Notes under the pieces: model-generated
The model's input: only the letters and a program-made list of their open reading frames with translations
The model's database searches: none
Told to the model about the DNA's origin: nothing
Assembly (NCBI RefSeq): GCF_900094805.1
Contig: NZ_FMAT01000003.1
Coordinates: 310,001-374,000 of the forward strand
Direction of reading: 5' to 3'
DNA: 64,000 nt
DNA from: Arthrobacter sp. NIO-1057
GTDB taxonomy: Bacteria; Actinomycetota; Actinomycetes; Actinomycetales; Micrococcaceae
Position numbers and translations under genes: made by a program
In this document: positions 5,074 through 37,061 of the stretch, piece after piece
How positions within the stretch are numbered: the stretch's first letter is position 1
How the letters are laid out: the number at the start of each line of letters is the position of its first letter

Positions 5074-6726
<1,653 letters not shown>

Positions 6727-6828
6727 CACATTCAAAGACTAGTCCCCGGTGCTGCGCCTGTCACCGTGGGGTTGATCGTGATCTGTGGTTTTGCCGCCTC
6801 CGGTCCCGGCCCGCGTCAAGCTAAAAGA

Positions 6829-11765: not shown

Positions 11766-12875
11766 TTATTCGGCTTCTTCGAAGAAGGTTTCCACCTCGG
11801 TAATACCTGCGGAAATAACAGGGACCAGACGCTCATCAATGCTGTAAGTTTCGCCATCCTTGGAGAGCAGCCCATAGCCAACTAAGGAATCCATGGCGGC
11901 CTGTGCTTCAGGCAACACCGAGTCGTAGATCTTCGGTCCAACATTGCGGCGCAGGCCCTCAAGGTCGCCTTCTCGTCCGGTGGAAGCGGTGACCAAGAGG
12001 TTACGCAACACCAGGTAGTGGGCTTCATCGCGCAGCGCGACATCAAAGGTCGGGTTCAAGTGGGCCTGTACGCAGCCCACTGCCATCTCGAAGAGGATCT
12101 GTGCGCTGGCCGCTTGATCTCCGTCAACCAGCAGATCATAGGATTCTTCGTCCAGACGCATCGTTGGTCCGTCAAAGTCCACCACGGACAGTCGCGCCGC
12201 ACCCCAGATGTAGGTGAAGACAAGTGGTGCCGGAGCATCGGTGTCGAAAGTTTCTGCGTCCAAGCCCAAGGAATTCAGTACCCGAGCGCGCGCATCCTTG
12301 TTCGCCTCGCTTTCATCGGACATATCAACGCCGTCTCCGATGGCTAAAGCGAAGGCCTTGACCTGATTGAATAACTTTGTCTCACGCAGTAGCTCGCAGA
12401 TTTCTGCATCGCCTTCGGCAAAGCCTTCCAAGGTGTCTTCAAGCATTTCACGCAGTGCTTCGAAGTTTTCTGCTTCGCCTTCCCAGAGATTTCTCTCCTC
12501 GAGGTAGCTGAGGTAGTCCAGCCAAGTGGTGAAGACTGGTTCCGGGGCGACAGTCTCGGGAAGCCCCATGAGGTGCTCGGCCAAGGACTCGCCGAAGAGG
12601 TCAATATCGATATCGTGCAGGTTAGAGCTATTGGCTTTTTGTGCGTATTCTGCACCGACTGCGCCGATAACATACAGCTGAATATCTGCAGCTGCGGCGG
12701 CATCTTCAGGGGAGAAGGCCGGAACAGTACTTGCTACCCACGCCGCATAATCTTCACGCAGCGCGTCGATATATTGTTCCACCTGGATACGGTAAACACT
12801 GCGACCGCGTTGTGCGGCTTTGGCAGGATTTCCTGCGCCGGAGTTCTTTTTACTGTGACGCTTTTTGCTGGCCAT
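11766..12875 (-). CDS. Hypothetical acidic protein sharing a region with the pRiA4b ORF-3 gene
   Basis: A 369-residue acidic soluble protein with a short lysine/serine-rich N-terminus (MASKKRHSKKNSG). The start is supported by AAAGGA eight bases before ATG. I know no function. Its segment VFTTWLDYLSYLEERNLWEG closely parallels VFTAWTVYLDFLQENDLWGG in the protein at 27838-29613. The C-terminal part (MDSLVGYGLLSKDGETYSI) also parallels MELLRSLGLVNEGSTYDI there. So it looks like a paralogue of the first two thirds of that protein, without its C-terminal pRiA4b ORF-3 domain. Confidence 0.75.
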   Translation of the reverse strand: MASKKRHSKKNSGAGNPAKAAQRGRSVYRIQVEQYIDALREDYAAWVASTVPAFSPEDAAAAADIQLYVIGAVGAEYAQKANSSNLHDIDIDLFGESLAEHLMGLPETVAPEPVFTTWLDYLSYLEERNLWEGEAENFEALREMLEDTLEGFAEGDAEICELLRETKLFNQVKAFALAIGDGVDMSDESEANKDARARVLNSLGLDAETFDTDAPAPLVFTYIWGAARLSVVDFDGPTMRLDEESYDLLVDGDQAASAQILFEMAVGCVQAHLNPTFDVALRDEAHYLVLRNLLVTASTGREGDLEGLRRNVGPKIYDSVLPEAQAAMDSLVGYGLLSKDGETYSIDERLVPVISAGITEVETFFEEAE

Positions 12876-13021: not shown

Positions 13022-13798
13022 ATGAAGATCGCCGTTTTAATCAAGGAGGTCCCGGATACCGGGGCGGACCGTACGCTGAATCAACACACGGGTCTAGCTG
13101 ATCGGGCTGCTTCCGAAGCGGTACTTGATGAAATCGGCGAGCGCACACTGGAAGTCGCTCTCAAGATCTTAGATTCCCAGCCAGAGACCCACATTACGGT
13201 GCTGAGCATGGGACCCGAGACCATCCAAGCAACCCTGCGCAAGGCCCTTGCCATGGGAGCCGCCGGGGCCATACACGTCAGTGATGAGCAGCTACTCGGA
13301 GCCGATCTCATGCTCACCGCGCAGGTCTTGGCCGCCGCACTGCGCCGTGATCAGTACGATCTGATCCTCACCGGGAACATGTCCACCGACGGCTCGGCAG
13401 GCATGCTGCCGGTGATGTTGGCCGAGCTACTGTCCTTACCGGCTGCTACCTCGCTGTCTCAAATCACCATCACCGATGGCGTACTGCAAGGCACCCGCGA
13501 ACTGGAGGGCGCCACCGCGCAGGTGAGCACCCCGCTTCCGGCCATCGCTTCGATCACCGAGGCATTGCCCGATGCGCGTTTCCCGAACTTTAAAGGCATC
13601 ATGGCCGCCAAGAAGAAGCCAATCGAGGTACTTTCTCTAGCAGATCTGGACGTGGAGGCACTGCCTGCCGATACCGCCCGGTCGATCATGCTCACCGTGA
13701 ATCAGCGCCCTGCCCGTGAAGCGGGCACCATCATGACTGATGACGGCCAGGCCGCCACAGCGCTGGTTGAATTTTTGGCGAAGAACAACCTGGTGTGA
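13022..13798 (+). CDS. etfB: Electron transfer flavoprotein beta subunit
   Basis: A 258-residue protein of the normal ETF-beta length. It opens with [16 protein letters not shown], carries the AMP/adenine-binding region and the conserved stretch [24 protein letters not shown], and ends in [11 protein letters not shown]. With EtfA it forms the soluble heterodimer that takes electrons from acyl-CoA and other dehydrogenases. GGAG lies six bases before ATG. It is first in a three-gene unit with etfA and a b-type cytochrome-like membrane protein. Confidence 0.95.
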
Positions 13799-13811
13799 AC
13801 GGAAAATTATC

Positions 13812-14795
13812 ATGACTACATTTGCCCCGGATTCCATCCTGGTATTTCTTGAGACCACACTTGGCGGTGAACCGGCGAAAAGCACCGCCGAATTACTTGG
13901 CGCTGCGGCGGGTATCGGCACCCCGGTTGCGGTCATTGCCGCGGAGGCAGAGCACCTTGAAGCCTTGGCCGCCCATGCCGCGCAGGCCGGGGCTCATTCG
14001 GTACTGAGCGCGCAGGTTGATTCCGTGGTGCTCACCGCACCATTGGCCGATGTCCTGCAGCAAGCTTATGAACTGGTGCAACCGCAAGCAGTGCTCTTAG
14101 CCCATAGCCTGACCTCCCGCGAGGTAGCCGCACGCTTCGCGGTACGCCACAAATTGGCCCTGAGTGTGGACGCGCTCGGGGTACAGCGTGATGAGCAGGG
14201 GGTGATTGCCAGCCATTCGATTTATGGCGGAGCCTTTGCGACCACTAGCGCCCCGACCTTTGGTGCTCCAGTCATCACCGTGCGGGTAGGCAGTATTGAA
14301 GAGCGTGCCCAAGCACAGGAACTAGCATTGAGGGCATTAGACGTTGCTGCGGGCGATTCCGCCGAAATCACAGTGCAGGACGTGTCCTCGGTTCAGGCCG
14401 ATTCAGCGCGTCCCGAATTGCGCACGGCCACCAAGGTGGTCTCCGGTGGACGTGGGCTGGGTAGCGCGGAACAGTTTGAGCTGGTGTATCAGTTGGCCGA
14501 TGCCCTAGAGGCTGGGGTGGGTGCTTCACGTGCCGCGGTGGATGCAGGCTTTATTGAACATGCTGCTCAGGTAGGCCAGACCGGCGTTGCGGTCTCCCCT
14601 CAGTTATATGTAGCGCTGGGTATCTCTGGCGCCATCCAACATAAGGCCGGTATGCAAACGGCCAAGACCATCGTGGCCATCAACAAAGACAGTGATGCTC
14701 CGATTTTCGAGATTGCCGACTTTGGCATTGTCGGCGATGTCTTCAAGATTGTCCCGCGAGTCATTTCTGCTTTGGAAGCACGCAAGGCACAGTAA
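13812..14795 (+). CDS. etfA: Electron transfer flavoprotein alpha subunit
   Basis: A 327-residue protein with the standard FAD-binding C-terminal half: [51 protein letters not shown] and [13 protein letters not shown]. These are the signature segments of ETF-alpha, which holds FAD and passes electrons onward. It follows etfB after 13 bases. Its stop codon overlaps the start of the downstream membrane protein (TAATG), which argues that the two are made together. Start set at ATG 13812; an earlier in-frame start overlaps etfB and adds nothing recognisable. Confidence 0.95.
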
Positions 14796-16486
14796 TGACG
14801 AGCCCATTGTCCAAGAGCCTGCGGCAGGGCCTACCTCGGATTCCCGGAGGCGACCCATGGCCACCTGCCGGTGTCCAAGAAACAGCATCGGAGCCCGCCG
14901 TTTTACCGGAGGAAACTGAAATCCCCGTTGCCCCGGAAACTGCTCAGGTTGTCCCTACCCCGGAGCCTGAGGCAAGTTCAGTACAGCCAGTTATAGTTTC
15001 GGCGGCTCCTGTAGCGAAGCTGCGCCAAGGTCTGCCGAGAGTTGTTGGCGGAGAGCCTTGGCCTCCTAGCGATACACCGGGCCGTGCCGCGGTTCCCCTG
15101 GCTGCCGATGAGCCCGCGGTGGCACCGGAATCACCTGCGCAGTCAGCTCCGATTCAGGAACCGGTTGTACTGGTTACCCCTGAACCTGCTGGAAAAACTG
15201 AGCCAGCCCAAGAAGAGCGTCCCGTGGAATTCTATGGAGATGCGCCGACGATTCGACGAGGCCTACCTCGGGCGGCAGACGGACAGCCTTGGCCACCGGC
15301 TAGCTTTGTCGCCACCCCTTTCACGGCTGCGCCTGTGCCAGTCGAAAAAGTAGACCAGCGTCCAACAGCAGAGGCTCAAGAACGTGTTGTCGCAGCGCCA
15401 GTTATCGCGGCACCTGTTCCCGAAGAACCCGACGTCAAAAAACAGCAGGCCACAGAGCCAGTGGCTAAACCTGTTGCCGCGCCTGCACCGGCTCCGGCAC
15501 CAGCACCAGGGCCAGCACAAAAAGCCCCGCCGGCTGCGACAAGTTCGAAGCCAGCTGTTGCAGAGCCGAAACGCCATGGGCCGCTGACCACTAAACAGTG
15601 GATTCTCGCCGGCGTGCTCGGTGCATTTTGCGCCTTGGGCATGGCAACGGCCGTGGTTCTGGTTGCTCGTGGAATCGCCGGCATCGATGCCGTCGCGGAG
15701 TTCATTCAGCGTTACCCCGGTGAATATCATCTCCCCGATTCAGCTCCTGTGGGCGTGCCTGCATGGCTAGCCTGGAACCACTTCTTCAACTTTTTCTTGA
15801 TGGTGCTGATCATCCGCTCCGGATTACAGGTACGCCATCAGAAAAAGCCTCCGGCCTACTGGTCTTCCAAACGTAGCCCCAAGGTGAGCATTAACCTCTG
15901 GTTGCACCAGAGCTTGGATGTGCTGTGGATTATCAATGGTCTAGTGTTCGTCGTCTTGCTCTTTGCTTCGGGACATTGGATGAGGGTTGTCCCAACGTCT
16001 TGGGAGGTTTTCCCGAATGCGCTTTCGGCGGCCCTTCAATACCTCACCTTGGATTGGCCCACGGAAAACGGTTGGGTGAACTACAACTCGCTACAGCAGC
16101 TGGCGTACTTCGTCACCGTATTTATTGCCGCACCATTAGCAGCGATCACCGGATTCCGGTTAAGCGCGTTCTGGCCCAAGTCACCATCGCTATCCAAGAG
16201 ATACCCCATCGAGGTGGCCCGGTCCCTGCACTTCCCCACCATGCTCTACTTTGCCGTGTTCATTCTTGTTCACGTCATCCTCGTATTTTCTACCGGAGCG
16301 TTGCGCAATCTAAACCATATGTATGCCGCTCAGGGGTCAACCGATCCGACGCAGTACGCCGAGAATTGGGCAGGGCTGCTCTACTTTGCTCTTTCACTGC
16401 TGGTCATCACCGCCGCATGGCTTGCCTGCAGGCCTATTGTTCTCTCATCTATCGCAGGCTTCTTCGGAAAGGTCAGTTCGCGGTAG
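14795..16486 (+). CDS. Cytochrome b-like membrane protein with repeat-bearing Pro/Ala-rich N-terminus
   Basis: A 563-residue protein in two parts. Residues 1-262 are low-complexity, rich in Pro, Ala, Val and Glu. They carry three copies of a 16-residue motif of the form (L/I)-R-(Q/R)-G-L-P-R-x3-G-x-P-W-P-P (or close to it) at 9-24, 76-91 and 153-168. Residues 268-555 hold about five membrane helices with histidines placed like the haem ligands of b561/hydrogenase-type cytochrome b (H329 in WNHFFNFF, H371 in WLHQSLD, H479 in SLHFP, H493 in LVHVILV). It is coupled to etfA by a one-base overlap. I infer a membrane partner that accepts electrons from ETF; no iron-sulfur motif is seen. Confidence 0.8.
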
Positions 16487-32988: not shown

Positions 32989-33825
32989 TTACAAAGCGAC
33001 CTGTCGGTTCTGATCCTTGTACAGTAGGTAACGGAAGTTATCCGGACCACCGGCATAACAAGCCTGCGGGCAGAAGGCACGCAGTGACATGTAGTCCCCG
33101 GCTTCCACTTCAACCCAGTCACCGTTCAACCGGTACACGCCCTTACCTTCGAGCACGTACAGGCCATGTTCCATCACGTGGGTCTCGGCAAAAGGAATCG
33201 AAGCACCTGGCTCAAAGGTCACGATGTTCACGCCAAAGTCGAAAGCGGCATCGTCAGGATCAAGCATGCGGGTGGTGCGCCATTTGCCATCGGTGCCCGG
33301 CATGGCGCCAGGTTCCACGTCGCGTTCATTGCCCACCACCGGGCCCGGAGCATCCACACCGGCCAGTGGTTCATAGCGCTTGCGCAGCCAGTGGAAACTG
33401 GTCAGTTCGGTGCCGTCATTGCGTGCCGACCAGGTGGAACCGGCAGGCAGGTAAGCGTAACCGCCGTCTTCGAGCACATGCTCGGTGCCTTCAATGATCA
33501 GGGTCAGTTGCCCGGTGAGGACAAAGATGAAGCCCTGGACTTCGGCCTGTGGTTCTGGCTTGGTCGCTCCGCCGCCGGGGGCAACTTCCACGATGGACTG
33601 GGCGAAGGTGGTGGCACCACCGGCGACCGGACGGTTGAGCACCCATGCGCGGGTATTGGTCCACTCGGGGAAGACACTGGTGACGATGTCACGCAGCACG
33701 CCCTTGGGGATCACGGTGTAAGCCTCGGTGACGATGGCGCGGTCGGTGAGTAGGTCGCTCTGTGGCGGGTGTCCACCGAAGTTCGCGTAGTAGGACGCGG
33801 AGTTCTGGATTGCTGGAACAGTCAT
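32989..33825 (-). CDS. allE: (S)-ureidoglycine aminohydrolase
   Basis: A 278-residue bicupin protein matching AllE/YlbA. Its N-terminal half has SASYYANFGGHPPQ and PKGVLRDIVTSVFPEW, followed by a cupin with VQGFIFVLTGQLTL. The C-terminal cupin has FAETHVMEHGLYVLEGKGVYRLNGDW with the metal-binding residues, and ends RYLLYKDQNRQV. It removes ammonia from (S)-ureidoglycine to give (S)-ureidoglycolate in purine breakdown and uses Mn2+. It is last in a run with the DUF6986 and malate synthase genes (ten-base gap). Confidence 0.92.
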   Translation of the reverse strand: MTVPAIQNSASYYANFGGHPPQSDLLTDRAIVTEAYTVIPKGVLRDIVTSVFPEWTNTRAWVLNRPVAGGATTFAQSIVEVAPGGGATKPEPQAEVQGFIFVLTGQLTLIIEGTEHVLEDGGYAYLPAGSTWSARNDGTELTSFHWLRKRYEPLAGVDAPGPVVGNERDVEPGAMPGTDGKWRTTRMLDPDDAAFDFGVNIVTFEPGASIPFAETHVMEHGLYVLEGKGVYRLNGDWVEVEAGDYMSLRAFCPQACYAGGPDNFRYLLYKDQNRQVAL

Positions 33826-33835
33826 GATGGGATCC

Positions 33836-35089
33836 TTAGGCGTGGGAGCGATTCAGCGCGATGGCTTCGAGTTCGGGCAGGGTGATCTGGGCTAGCTCAG
33901 CGACTTCCTCTGCGCTCACCGCACCGCAGGTGACCCCGCGGTGGATGTAGCGAGCAAGGGCTCGTGCGGTGGCTGGTTCGTCCATAATCGTTGAGCTGAT
34001 CTGGTGAACGTAGTTGCGCAGGCGGGTACCGGCCGCTTGCAGACCCTCGCGGAAGAAGGCGAAGGTGGCAAGGTAACGGGTGGGCAGCTGGTTTTCGTGC
34101 AGGTCCCAGCCCTGGTAGATACCTCGGGCTAGGTGGCGGGAGACCAAACGAGCATGCAGCGCCCAGGCTTCTGCCATGTTCTCCGGGTCGCCGGCGGGGA
34201 TGATGTTGGTCGAGCCGTCGGAGAGCTCGACGCCGGTGCCGGCCACGGCCACCTGCATGACGTCCTTGGCGTAGTCGGCCACTGGATGTTCCATGGACTG
34301 GTAGCCGGCGGCCACGTCCAGTGAGGCAGAGTAGTCATAGGTGCCGTAGTGCAGGGAGGATACTCGGCCCTGGCCTGCATGGATCAGCCCGGCCACAGGA
34401 TGGGTGCCATCGGCGGCGATGATGACCTGGGGGGTTTCGACCTGCACTTCGAAGCGAAGAGCGCCGGATTCAAGACCATGGGTTTCTTCTAGCTTTTCGG
34501 TCAGCACTACCATGGCTTTGACCTGGTCTACCGTGGTTACCTTGGGCAGGGTCAGGCGTAGTCCCGCTGGTAGCTGACCGTGAGAAAGCAACTGGTTAAT
34601 GAACAGGCCCAGGGTTCGAATGCCTCGGGCCCGGGTCGGAGCTTCGAAACATTTAAAACGGATACCGATAAAGGATGGTGCTTTGTTTGCGGCGATGGCC
34701 GCAGCGAGCGAGTCGGCCGCCGCCAGTACGGCGGCGTCCTCCTCAGCATCGTTGCGATTGCCAAAGCCGTCTTCAAAGTCAATGCGCAAATCTTCGATGG
34801 GTTCACTGGCCAGCTTCTGGGCTACCAACTCGGCCAACCGCTGTGGTTCAGCCAGGTTCAGCTTGGTGGCCAGCATTGATAGTCCCACCAGGCCACCGGC
34901 GGCCGCCATGGCGTTGTGGCCCCACGCCGTTGGTAGTTCCGGGGTGTACTGATCCCCTGGAACATACACGGTGTGGATGGGCTGGCGTGCCCCGGAATCC
35001 CCCGGGTAGGACTTTTCTAGTAGCTGATCCGTGGTGGCCAGTAGCGCTTCTACGCTGGCCAATGTGGACTCATCGAAGGGGTTGATCAT
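33836..35089 (-). CDS. DUF6986 protein, HpcH/HpaI aldolase-like
   Basis: A 417-residue protein with a TIM-barrel aldolase/citrate-lyase look: IEDLRIDFEDGFGNR, then LRLTLPKV, LRFEVQVETPQVI and the region SSLHYGTYDYSASLDV. Related proteins are usually annotated DUF6986 or citrate-lyase-beta-like and are commonly next to malate synthase. The reaction is not known; it may act on glyoxylate or a related 2-oxoacid. Its ATG overlaps the malate synthase stop codon (ATGA), so the two are translated together. Confidence 0.82.
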   Translation of the reverse strand: MINPFDESTLASVEALLATTDQLLEKSYPGDSGARQPIHTVYVPGDQYTPELPTAWGHNAMAAAGGLVGLSMLATKLNLAEPQRLAELVAQKLASEPIEDLRIDFEDGFGNRNDAEEDAAVLAAADSLAAAIAANKAPSFIGIRFKCFEAPTRARGIRTLGLFINQLLSHGQLPAGLRLTLPKVTTVDQVKAMVVLTEKLEETHGLESGALRFEVQVETPQVIIAADGTHPVAGLIHAGQGRVSSLHYGTYDYSASLDVAAGYQSMEHPVADYAKDVMQVAVAGTGVELSDGSTNIIPAGDPENMAEAWALHARLVSRHLARGIYQGWDLHENQLPTRYLATFAFFREGLQAAGTRLRNYVHQISSTIMDEPATARALARYIHRGVTCGAVSAEEVAELAQITLPELEAIALNRSHA

Positions 35090-36717
35090 GACTTGCTCAC
35101 GTACTCCTTTTCCAATAGTTCATAAGCGCCGGTGGTGAGGAAGTCTGCAAAGTCCTCATCCTTGCCACTGGTCAGGGTGGCGATCAGCCCGGCGGCTGGC
35201 TCATAGTAGGCCTTGAAGTGTTCCTCGTTGTTGACTTCGCCGCGCAGGCGCTCAACTTCTTCATCAAGAATCTTCGAGACCAGTTCTGCGGTGATGGTGT
35301 TGCCGGTGTCGGCGGCGACCACTTGATTGCGAATCTGCTGCCAGATCTGCGAGCGGGAGATTTCTGCGGTGGCGGCGTCTTCCATCAGGTTGTGGATGGC
35401 TACCGCACCATTGCCCGAGAGCCATACAGCCACGTAGTTCACGGCGACGTAGAGGTTGGCGCGCACGCCGGCCTCGGTCACGTCGCCCGGTGCGCTGGCA
35501 ACGTCAAGCAGTTGGGCCGCGGTGACCTCAACCTCTGGGCGCTGGCGGTCGATCTGGTTTGGCTTCTCGCCCAGCTTGGCGTCGAAGATTTCCTTGCAGA
35601 TATCTACCAGGTCTGGGTGAGCTACCCACGAACCGTCGAATCCGTCGTTAGCTTCACGGGACTTGTCATCGCGCACCTTCTCGAAGGCTGCTGCGGTGAC
35701 TTCTGGTTCGCGGCGGTTCGGGATGAACGCGGCCATGCCACCCATGGCGAAGGCGCCACGCTTGTGACAGGTTTTCACCAACAGTTCGGTGTAGGCGCGC
35801 ATCATTGGTGCGGTCATGGAGACGGCCGAACGGTCCGGCATGATGAAGGCATCGCCGGCTTCGCGGAAAGTCTTGATGATGGAGAACAGGTAGTCCCAGC
35901 GTCCAGCGTTCAGACCCGACGCGTGCTCGCGCAGTTCGTAGAGGAATTCTTCCATCTGGAATGCGGCTGGAATGGTTTCGATCAGCATGGTGGCGCGCAC
36001 CGTGCCATGGGCGATTCCCAGTTCAGCCTGGGCGAAGGTGAAGATCTCGTTCCACAGGCGTGCTTCGAGGTAGTGCTCCATCTTCGGCAGGTAGTAGAAC
36101 GGCCCCTGTCCGGATTCGGCCAATACCTTGGCGTTGTGGAAGAAGTGCAGGCCGAAGTCCACCAGTGCACCTACCGCTGGCTCGCCGTTGATCAGTACGT
36201 TGTTTTCTGGCAGGTGCCAGCCGCGGGGACGAACCACAACGACAGCGCGTGGTGCGTCGGTGCGCAGCGCATAGGACTTTCCGGTCTTCTCGTCGGTGAA
36301 AGCCAGGGTGCCGCGGGCGGCGGCCGAAAGATTGGAGATTGCGTCGATGACGTTGAACCAGCTCGGAGTGGAAGCATCTTCCAGGTCGGCCAACCAGACT
36401 TTGGCGCCTGAGTTCAGGGCGTTGATGGCCATCTTGGCTGGAGACGCTGGGCCGGTAATTTCGACGCGACGGTCACGCAGGGCTTCCGGTGCTTCGGCGA
36501 CCTTCCAGTCACCGGTGCGCACTGCTTCGGTCTGTGGGTCAAAGTCGATGGCTTTGGCGTCAGAGAATTCTTGGCGGCGCACTGAACGAGCTGCCAGCAA
36601 CTCGTTTCGGGTTCCGGCGAACTTCTCGTGCAGCTTCTGGATGAAAGCTAGGGCGTCATCGGAGAGAATCTGCTGGGCATCTGCGACGTCGGGGATGCTG
36701 GTGATTGAAATACTCAT
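35086..36717 (-). CDS. aceB: Malate synthase A
   Basis: A 543-residue protein of the malate synthase A class (about 530 residues is usual). Landmarks: VEITGPASPAKMAINALNSGA, WLADLEDASTP, VVRPRGWHLPE, YYLPKMEHYLEARLWNEIF, GTVRATMLIETI and AFAMGGMAAFIPNRREPE, with catalytic Arg and Asp/Glu in these blocks. It joins glyoxylate and acetyl-CoA to malate. AAGGAAC precedes ATG 36717. With AllE and an IclR regulator it probably consumes glyoxylate released from purine ureides; no isocitrate lyase is in view. Confidence 0.95.
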   Translation of the reverse strand: MSISITSIPDVADAQQILSDDALAFIQKLHEKFAGTRNELLAARSVRRQEFSDAKAIDFDPQTEAVRTGDWKVAEAPEALRDRRVEITGPASPAKMAINALNSGAKVWLADLEDASTPSWFNVIDAISNLSAAARGTLAFTDEKTGKSYALRTDAPRAVVVVRPRGWHLPENNVLINGEPAVGALVDFGLHFFHNAKVLAESGQGPFYYLPKMEHYLEARLWNEIFTFAQAELGIAHGTVRATMLIETIPAAFQMEEFLYELREHASGLNAGRWDYLFSIIKTFREAGDAFIMPDRSAVSMTAPMMRAYTELLVKTCHKRGAFAMGGMAAFIPNRREPEVTAAAFEKVRDDKSREANDGFDGSWVAHPDLVDICKEIFDAKLGEKPNQIDRQRPEVEVTAAQLLDVASAPGDVTEAGVRANLYVAVNYVAVWLSGNGAVAIHNLMEDAATAEISRSQIWQQIRNQVVAADTGNTITAELVSKILDEEVERLRGEVNNEEHFKAYYEPAAGLIATLTSGKDEDFADFLTTGAYELLEKEYVSKS

Positions 36718-37061
36718 GAGTTGTTCCTTAACCTCTTGTGCTCTTCTGCACTGCTCTGTTCCATGTTTGGATGTTTTGACGTTCATCCAACTTGTTGCTG
36801 CAATCTGCACCGTCGTGGTGCCGTTGGCTGCTGATTCATGATCCCGGCAATCCAAAAGATTTCCGTATAGTGGATACTATTATCCTCAAAATGAAAACGC
36901 AAGGGGTATTTGTGGTCTCAACCACGGATTTTTGTCGAAGAATTATCGGATCGTGGAAGAAAAGCACGGTTTTGAGCTATTCTTGAGACGGGGATTTCGC
37001 ATCGTAGAACTTACGCGTATGCTACTTCCAAAATGAGTGTCCTAACTAAGGAGCAAAAAAG
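36718..37061. promoter_or_regulatory. Divergent control region between aceB and the IclR gene
   Basis: 344 bases without a gene. It holds two overlapping inverted repeats at 36867-36885: ATAGT-4-ACTAT (36867-36880) and GGATA-4-TATCC (36872-36885). They lie about 150 bases before aceB and 180 before the regulator, and either could be the IclR-type binding site. Confidence 0.45.

Follow-up and report, generated by a model that had tools for sequence, protein, structure and literature searches.

The analysed stretch of Arthrobacter sp. NIO-1057 (64,000 nucleotides, positions 310,001 to 374,000 of contig NZ_FMAT01000003.1; in the following, the window) carries the genes etfB and etfA of an electron transfer flavoprotein (ETF), followed by the gene for a 563-residue membrane cytochrome b. 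We consider it probable that these three genes encode an ETF together with its own membrane oxidant. ETF, the presumed ligand of repeats in the N-terminal tail of the cytochrome, would be caught at the membrane and pass its electrons via a putative pair of b haems to menaquinone as the presumed acceptor. Genome comparison thus points to an alternative ETF-to-quinone route, in which the cytochrome probably takes the ETF electrons of fat and amino-acid breakdown in many actinobacteria, replacing the known enzymes. The gene is a candidate for an open gap, the path of ETF electrons into the respiratory chain of actinobacteria without ETF-quinone oxidoreductase (ETF-QO) and EtfD, and this candidate is conserved across several families.

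A first-pass annotation, made from the letters of the window, had described etfB, etfA and a 563-residue membrane protein gene joined by a one-base TAATG overlap, and the unit is present as described (Table 1). The products of etfB and etfA matched the Pfam families ETF and ETF_alpha above the cut-off; the start of etfA was picked by similarity, the longest open frame beginning at 13740. The base common to the etfA stop codon (TAA, 14793-14795) and the start codon of the cytochrome gene (ATG, 14795-14797) is the overlap. The cytochrome gene is the single match in the genome (3.54 Mb, 13 contigs), and its nearest named relatives come from Glutamicibacter and Arthrobacter.

Table 1 Features of the etfB-etfA-cytochrome unit in the window
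Feature	Position	Strand	Basis or remark
etfB (ETF beta subunit)	13022..13798	+	258 aa; PF01012 E 1.3e-32
etfA (ETF alpha subunit)	13812..14795	+	327 aa; PF00766 E 2.8e-32 and PF01012
TAATG stop/start overlap of etfA and cytochrome gene	14793..14797	+	read from sequence
ETF-linked membrane cytochrome b, 563 aa	14795..16486	+	PF01292 above cut-off
N-terminal tail rich in alanine, proline and glutamate, aa 1-261	14795..15577	+	predicted disordered; cytoplasmic by positive-inside rule
Tail repeat 1	14819..14872	+	aa 9-26
Tail repeat 2	15020..15073	+	aa 76-93
Tail repeat 3	15251..15304	+	aa 153-170
Six-helix cytochrome b domain	15578..16483	+	AlphaFold2 and PF01292
H329, predicted outer-haem ligand	15779..15781	+	codon CAC; H in 144/144
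H371, predicted inner-haem ligand	15905..15907	+	codon CAC; H in 144/144
H479, predicted inner-haem ligand	16229..16231	+	codon CAC; H in 144/144
H493, predicted outer-haem ligand	16271..16273	+	codon CAC; H in 144/144

PF01292 (prokaryotic cytochrome b561; E 4.8e-8; bit score 33.4, cut-off 30.1) is the sole Pfam domain above cut-off in the 563-residue protein and was found at E ≤ 0.01 in all 47 aligned sequences scanned. AlphaFold2 (51 sequences) predicted helices at residues 266-295, 323-348, 366-392, 428-456, 472-499 and 526-544, with a predicted local distance difference test score (pLDDT) above 80 in most ten-residue blocks of the cytochrome domain. The four histidines said to be placed like haem b ligands lie in these helices without exception, and they are invariant in an alignment of 144 sequences, made up of the window protein, members from loci that carry or lack etf genes, and a single molybdopterin-linked case, with some genes entered twice. 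Such a pattern probably corresponds to two b haems. Lysine and arginine number 13 in the predicted inside loops of the window protein versus 3 outside, and in all 144 sequences the loop charge was higher inside than outside, which by the positive-inside rule gives both termini a cytoplasmic position. Because the N-terminus would lie inside, we place H371/H479 in the inner and H329/H493 in the outer membrane half of the model, as a putative trans-membrane pair of b haems. Since there are just two cysteines in all (C279 and C545), the protein could hardly bind an iron-sulfur cluster. Plasmid relatives are annotated 'cytochrome b/b6 domain-containing protein' only, an NCBIfam hydrogenase model reached just E 0.53, and neither a sequence search nor a profile search of solved structures gave a relevant match to the cytochrome domain. 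In a Foldseek search disturbed by the tail, the top rows were TRP channels at E 0.18 and worse, which were set aside; the sensible row was 6g94_A (rank 10, E 1.0, probability 0.54, TM score 0.49 of the target; not significant).

The first-pass annotation would have been refuted by unconserved histidines or by the lack of an etfBA link elsewhere; the histidines proved invariant, and linkage to etfBA extends widely to other genomes. Of 277 relatives in genome_contigs the best 80 were taken, and at 73 of these nearest loci both genes stood directly upstream of the cytochrome, more often than chance would place them; a sample of nearest relatives leans towards the link. Six of the seven remaining loci begin within 381 bases of a contig end; at the seventh (L079) all that is left of etfBA is an etfB match of 36 residues, which is joined to the cytochrome. 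At this locus (L079:4362-6915, a metagenome-assembled genome of Microbacterium), the cytochrome follows an enoyl-CoA hydratase gene, and etfA and all but the start of etfB are gone from the space between them, apparently by deletion or an assembly fault. The automatically placed gap between etfA and the cytochrome measured -4 to +14 nt at 102 of 104 loci and 94 and 503 nt at the other two, counting all fetched loci with etfA, the window included and some genes twice. In the family of the window, Micrococcaceae, 179 of 245 genomes matched the full-length cytochrome at E ≤ 0.001, and etfBA adjoined it in 13 of 20 less similar loci, a chosen set. When the flanks of 97 loci were clustered, the widely shared clusters were those of the etf and cytochrome genes; one downstream cluster of mixed lengths and positions, with no family assigned, occurred at 43 loci, and the clustering is noisy because of shadow open reading frames in GC-rich DNA. 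Stand-alone cytochromes that have neither repeats nor etf genes nearby were seen at L185, L186, L191, L194 and L199-L201. An actinobacteria-like cytochrome with 51.5% identity is also encoded on a 42 kb plasmid recorded as Stenotrophomonas maltophilia (L001, NZ_CP090424.1), of which the host or the assembly may be mislabelled.

The known membrane oxidants of ETF were not found in the family of the window. The first-pass annotation had noted neither ETF-QO nor EtfD beside the unit, and as searched this holds for the whole genome. The iron-sulfur domain of ETF-QO (PF05187) was found in none of 100 family genomes and in 3 of 14 controls, the quinone-binding domain of ETF-QO and FixC (PF21162) in none of the 100 and in 2 of 14 controls (E. 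coli, Caulobacter); the genome of the window is part of all oxidant samples. An EtfD core query from a mycobacteria-like genome had no match at E ≤ 1e-30 in 149 family genomes; the same query found EtfD in 88 of 327 genomes of the order. At E ≤ 1e-50, 81 of these 327 genomes had the cytochrome domain, and it coincided with EtfD in none, versus 21.8 expected (Fisher p 1.6e-13, uncorrected for phylogeny). Likewise, none of the 42 genomes with a strong match to the tail motif described below had EtfD (11.3 expected, p 9.5e-7). Three weak motif matches (E 7e-4 to 9e-4) were excluded from this test: one sits in the dialect-II tail of the genome's own cytochrome (G080, the place of L115), and two have neither cytochrome nor etf at the site (G564, G332). 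G332 is an EtfD genome, and counting it would make the overlap of motif and EtfD 1. The exclusion also holds at closer range, with 20 cytochrome and 6 EtfD genomes in genus g74, 4 and 9 in family f33, and 4 and 13 in family f28, none with both, as if cytochrome and EtfD had replaced one another several times. The absence of other oxidants, the exclusion of EtfD across 327 genomes and the acyl-CoA genes beside relatives of the unit all support the earlier idea of an alternative ETF-to-quinone route. As EtfD candidates in the genome of the window, three CCG matches were considered and rejected: two lie in a 273-residue frame, which we take to be LutA-like, and the third in a 965-residue protein, by our reading a D-lactate dehydrogenase of the FAD/Fe-S kind.

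The tail, which had escaped the first-pass annotation, precedes the helices. Its pLDDT was 36-69 in ten-residue blocks up to residue 250, and AlphaFold2 gave it no secondary structure. Embedded in it are three near-identical copies of an 18-residue repeat, L-R-[RQ]-G-L-P-R-x-x-G-G-[ED]-P-W-P-P-A-G (LRRGLPRxxGGEPWPPAG). At the fetched loci the first copy nearly always has its GLPR at residue 9-14, and later copies follow mostly 50-110 residues on. Among 287 copies, collected by a regular expression in which G, P, R and W were preset, two residues that could have varied were fully conserved (R two before G and P after W, each 100%); the two G reached 94 and 95% and E/D 91%. Synonymous codons differed between copies within one gene at 2230 of 4015 residue-identical positions (120 genes); the copies keep their residues despite different codons, and selection on the repeats therefore acts at the protein level. 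A profile of the motif matched the genome of the window three times, every time in the cytochrome, and it matched 45 of the 327 genomes of the order, 42 of them strongly. In all 17 strong-motif genomes fetched from these 42, the tail lies beside etf genes (G413 and G374 are cut by contig ends). Two further dialects were counted with simple regular expressions. One, R-[RQK]-G-[LM]-P-R, occurs in the ETF-linked tails of L082, L113, L115, L202 and L203 and loosely in L195; the other, K-Q-R-M-G-G-Y-R-P with shorter forms, occurs in two to six copies in L187, L188, L192, L193, L196 and L204. These counts assign L042 to class II although it is a class I locus with a frameshift; L179 has masked letters and L180 is cut by a contig end.

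EtfD, the mycobacterial ETF partner (Rv0338c / MSMEG_0690), is a membrane protein with a haem b held by two histidines (PMC13083937; PMC8593149). The former report describes its tail as disordered, with conserved interspersed repeats and unresolved in the map from cryo-electron microscopy, and presents an AlphaFold3 model, not a measurement, in which ETF meets EtfD via this repeat tail (PMC13083937). This published model is the best outside support for a docking of ETF by tail repeats. In our set, the mycobacteria-like EtfD at L128 bears a KGLGIA repeat five times in a disordered C-terminal tail rich in alanine, proline and glutamate. The EtfD proteins at L207 and L218, whose disordered tails extend 569 and 580 residues beyond the aligned core, have nine DPWD copies each, mostly DPWDEP and the last at the very C-terminus. 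Repeat tails were found at 3 of 19 distinct EtfD loci, several of which, the tailed ones included, had been selected for long frames; the other 16 stop no more than 40 residues past the aligned core. There are thus at least two repeat wordings on EtfD (KGLGIAxGAKRPGAKK; DPWDEP) and three on the cytochrome (RRGLPRxxGGEPWPP; RRQGLPR; KQRMGGYRP).

The first-pass annotation had left it open whether the membrane protein is the acceptor or the donor of ETF. Genes on the same strand as etfB were counted at 93 loci having 2.5 kb upstream, and domains were confirmed by Pfam on examples. Enoyl-CoA hydratase genes were found at 49 loci, acyl-CoA dehydrogenase genes at 37 and 3-hydroxyisobutyrate dehydrogenase genes at 19, at least one of the three at 56 of 93. 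Seven of the acyl-CoA dehydrogenase matches have 32-35% identity and two of the enoyl-CoA hydratase matches 33%; nine loci depend on such matches alone, and without them 47 of 93 remain. Taken together, the three genes point to valine/isobutyryl-CoA breakdown. A tail-less plasmid relative of the cytochrome directly follows etfA, with thiolase and CoA-transferase genes adjoining on the other strand. Since genes of acyl-CoA oxidation lie upstream in many relatives, the acceptor role is favoured over that of a donor, and from this gene neighbourhood the direction is likely to be from acyl-CoA oxidation to ETF to the cytochrome.

In the mechanism that we propose, acyl-CoA dehydrogenases would reduce ETF, and the repeats of the cytoplasmic tail would catch it at the membrane. 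ETF would give single electrons to the haem b on the cytoplasmic side (H371/H479), from where they would move to the outer haem b (H329/H493) and then to menaquinone. The cytochrome would thereby fill the place of ETF-QO or EtfD, with a fold unrelated to theirs and with neither iron-sulfur clusters nor a flavin of its own. For a simple reaction at the inner side, the outer haem is a puzzle. Succinate:menaquinone reductases offer a known answer: by way of two haems, the proton gradient drives electrons onto a quinone of low potential. Transfer of ETF electrons to menaquinone is thermodynamically tight, and a gradient-driven step could therefore hold here as well. A bolder version, on which we would place only limited trust, makes the protein a third, independently evolved class of ETF:quinone oxidoreductase, a di-haem enzyme with gradient-driven transfer from ETF to menaquinone and multivalent docking repeats, tandem docking repeats having arisen separately on EtfD.

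Several observations weigh against an ETF with its own cytochrome oxidant. The genome retains a second ETF, housekeeping-like and likewise missed by the first-pass annotation (L118:8424-10265, G000 contig 3), which leaves that ETF without an assigned oxidant; as no EtfD was found in the genome, it could use the window cytochrome too. Genes of acyl-CoA oxidation are absent from the whole window (no match at E ≤ 1e-3), so that the preference for the acceptor role comes from relatives, and seven Glutamicibacter-type loci (L007-L013) have no upstream acyl-CoA genes either. The cytochrome occurs without etf in 7 of the 20 less similar family loci, and its domain also lies inside genes annotated as molybdopterin oxidoreductases. 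Five etfA-linked relatives (L002, L189, L190, L197, L198) have no tail, so ETF and cytochrome can be paired without it. A docking trial, in which EtfB, EtfA and tail of L017 were modelled as one chain with the natural stops read as serine (49 rows), left most of the FAD domain of EtfA unfolded at a pLDDT of about 40, the tail likewise at about 40, and gave no docking information. Fisher's test ignores phylogeny, and the p-values are inflated by shared ancestry; moreover, 158 of the 327 genomes have neither cytochrome nor EtfD. The full-length model of the cytochrome had no Foldseek match at E ≤ 0.001, and we know of no precedent among ETF oxidants for direct transfer from FAD to haem.

Part of these observations would also fit a tail with another purpose, the repeats binding an acyl-CoA dehydrogenase or clustering proteins and the cytochrome domain alone meeting ETF. 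The five tail-less relatives beside etfA speak for it, the fused model being uninformative on contact between tail and ETF. Against it, ETF-linked members bear tails of three dialects, repeats are absent from the seven etf-less members of the 20 family loci, and some lineages of EtfD, an unrelated protein, also have tail repeats, at which the published model docks ETF. A different purpose of the tail is a possibility to be reckoned with, though in our judgement a rather unlikely one.

We regard it as improbable that the cytochrome takes ETF electrons and delivers them to an acceptor other than menaquinone, serving as a trans-membrane wire instead of a quinone reductase. Four histidines fitting two haems in opposite membrane halves agree with a wire, such an arrangement being needless for a donor inside and a quinone near the inside, and so do the domain relatives in molybdopterin oxidoreductase-annotated genes; against it, the admittedly noisy flank clustering placed no other partner gene beside the unit, its one widespread downstream cluster being unassigned. 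Because the domain is found in such oxidoreductase genes, it may serve several partners. The genes in question are L005:3863-5542 and the plasmid matches H5-H20, annotated as molybdopterin-dependent oxidoreductases (Curtobacterium, Rhodococcus, rhizobia and others), a set that includes two records of unconfirmed annotation. Very improbable is a reversed flow, in which ETF would receive electrons from menaquinol via the cytochrome and supply them to a reductive reaction, the proton gradient perhaps being the driving force. A pair of haems spanning the membrane could be coupled to such a gradient, but the upstream acyl-CoA genes, where present, belong to the oxidation of isobutyryl-CoA type compounds, and the cytochrome excludes EtfD, which is an oxidant of ETF.

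Set against known systems, the cytochrome as ETF oxidant has EtfD as its counterpart, with the presumed role of an ETF:menaquinone oxidoreductase in common. EtfD has CCG domains and cubane iron-sulfur clusters beside its haem b membrane part, whereas no CCG or 4Fe-4S domain was found in the cytochrome, which has only two cysteines. One haem in EtfD contrasts with probably two here, and the C-terminal tail of EtfD with an N-terminal tail of other repeat sequence. In M. tuberculosis, etfD and etfBA are at separate places (rv0338c versus rv3029c-rv3028c); the cytochrome gene forms one unit with etfBA. ETF-QO and FixC share the presumed role as membrane oxidants of ETF, but none of their Pfam domains is present in the cytochrome. 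PF01292 is the domain in common with b-type subunits of Ni/Fe-hydrogenases and with cytochrome b561, and the weak, not significant fold likeness to 6g94_A concerns a chain of the E. coli hydrogenase-1/cytochrome b complex. In contrast to those cytochromes, the window protein has a long repeat tail, would have ETF instead of hydrogenase as partner and is predicted with two helices beyond the four of the family. In its proposed mode the window protein would resemble TROL and Tic62, with no sequence kinship claimed; these tether the flavoenzyme FNR to the thylakoid membrane, as membrane proteins recruiting a soluble flavoprotein, whereas the anchor in the window would itself be the redox partner. 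TROL and Tic62 recruit FNR through a proline-rich repeat segment.

The first-pass annotation knew of no described system with this architecture. In agreement with this, no cytochrome b was named as ETF partner in these bacteria among the matches listed from the open-access literature. As far as seen, the job of an ETF oxidant is thus already known and the cytochrome b fold for this job apparently new. If the reading is true, ETF can be oxidised by a cytochrome b that has neither a flavin nor iron-sulfur clusters. The presence of repeat tails on two ETF oxidants of different families would then suggest a shared docking principle, with a bearing on the published mycobacterial EtfD, and in the bolder version such tails would be a recurrent actinobacterial way of keeping ETF at the membrane.

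The two ETFs of the genome have 40% identity between the EtfB proteins and 47% between the EtfA proteins (235 aligned residues); some 6.6 kb separate the second ETF from a cysteine-desulfurase-like gene, a name taken from inspection of the sequence and not from a family search. At five loci all three genes of the unit are in one frame. Upstream of the unit in the window, the gene at 11766-12875 (-) encodes a protein of 369 residues without a Pfam match at E ≤ 1, and its homologue cluster is present upstream of the etf/cytochrome unit at 5 loci. About 6 kb ahead of etfB, an AMP-binding gene resembling acyl-CoA ligases (PF00501, PF13193) is located at 5074-6735 (-). Further downstream, a run of genes at 32989-36855 (-) includes malate synthase, a DUF6986 protein and a two-cupin protein and is perhaps a glyoxylate or purine-breakdown cluster.

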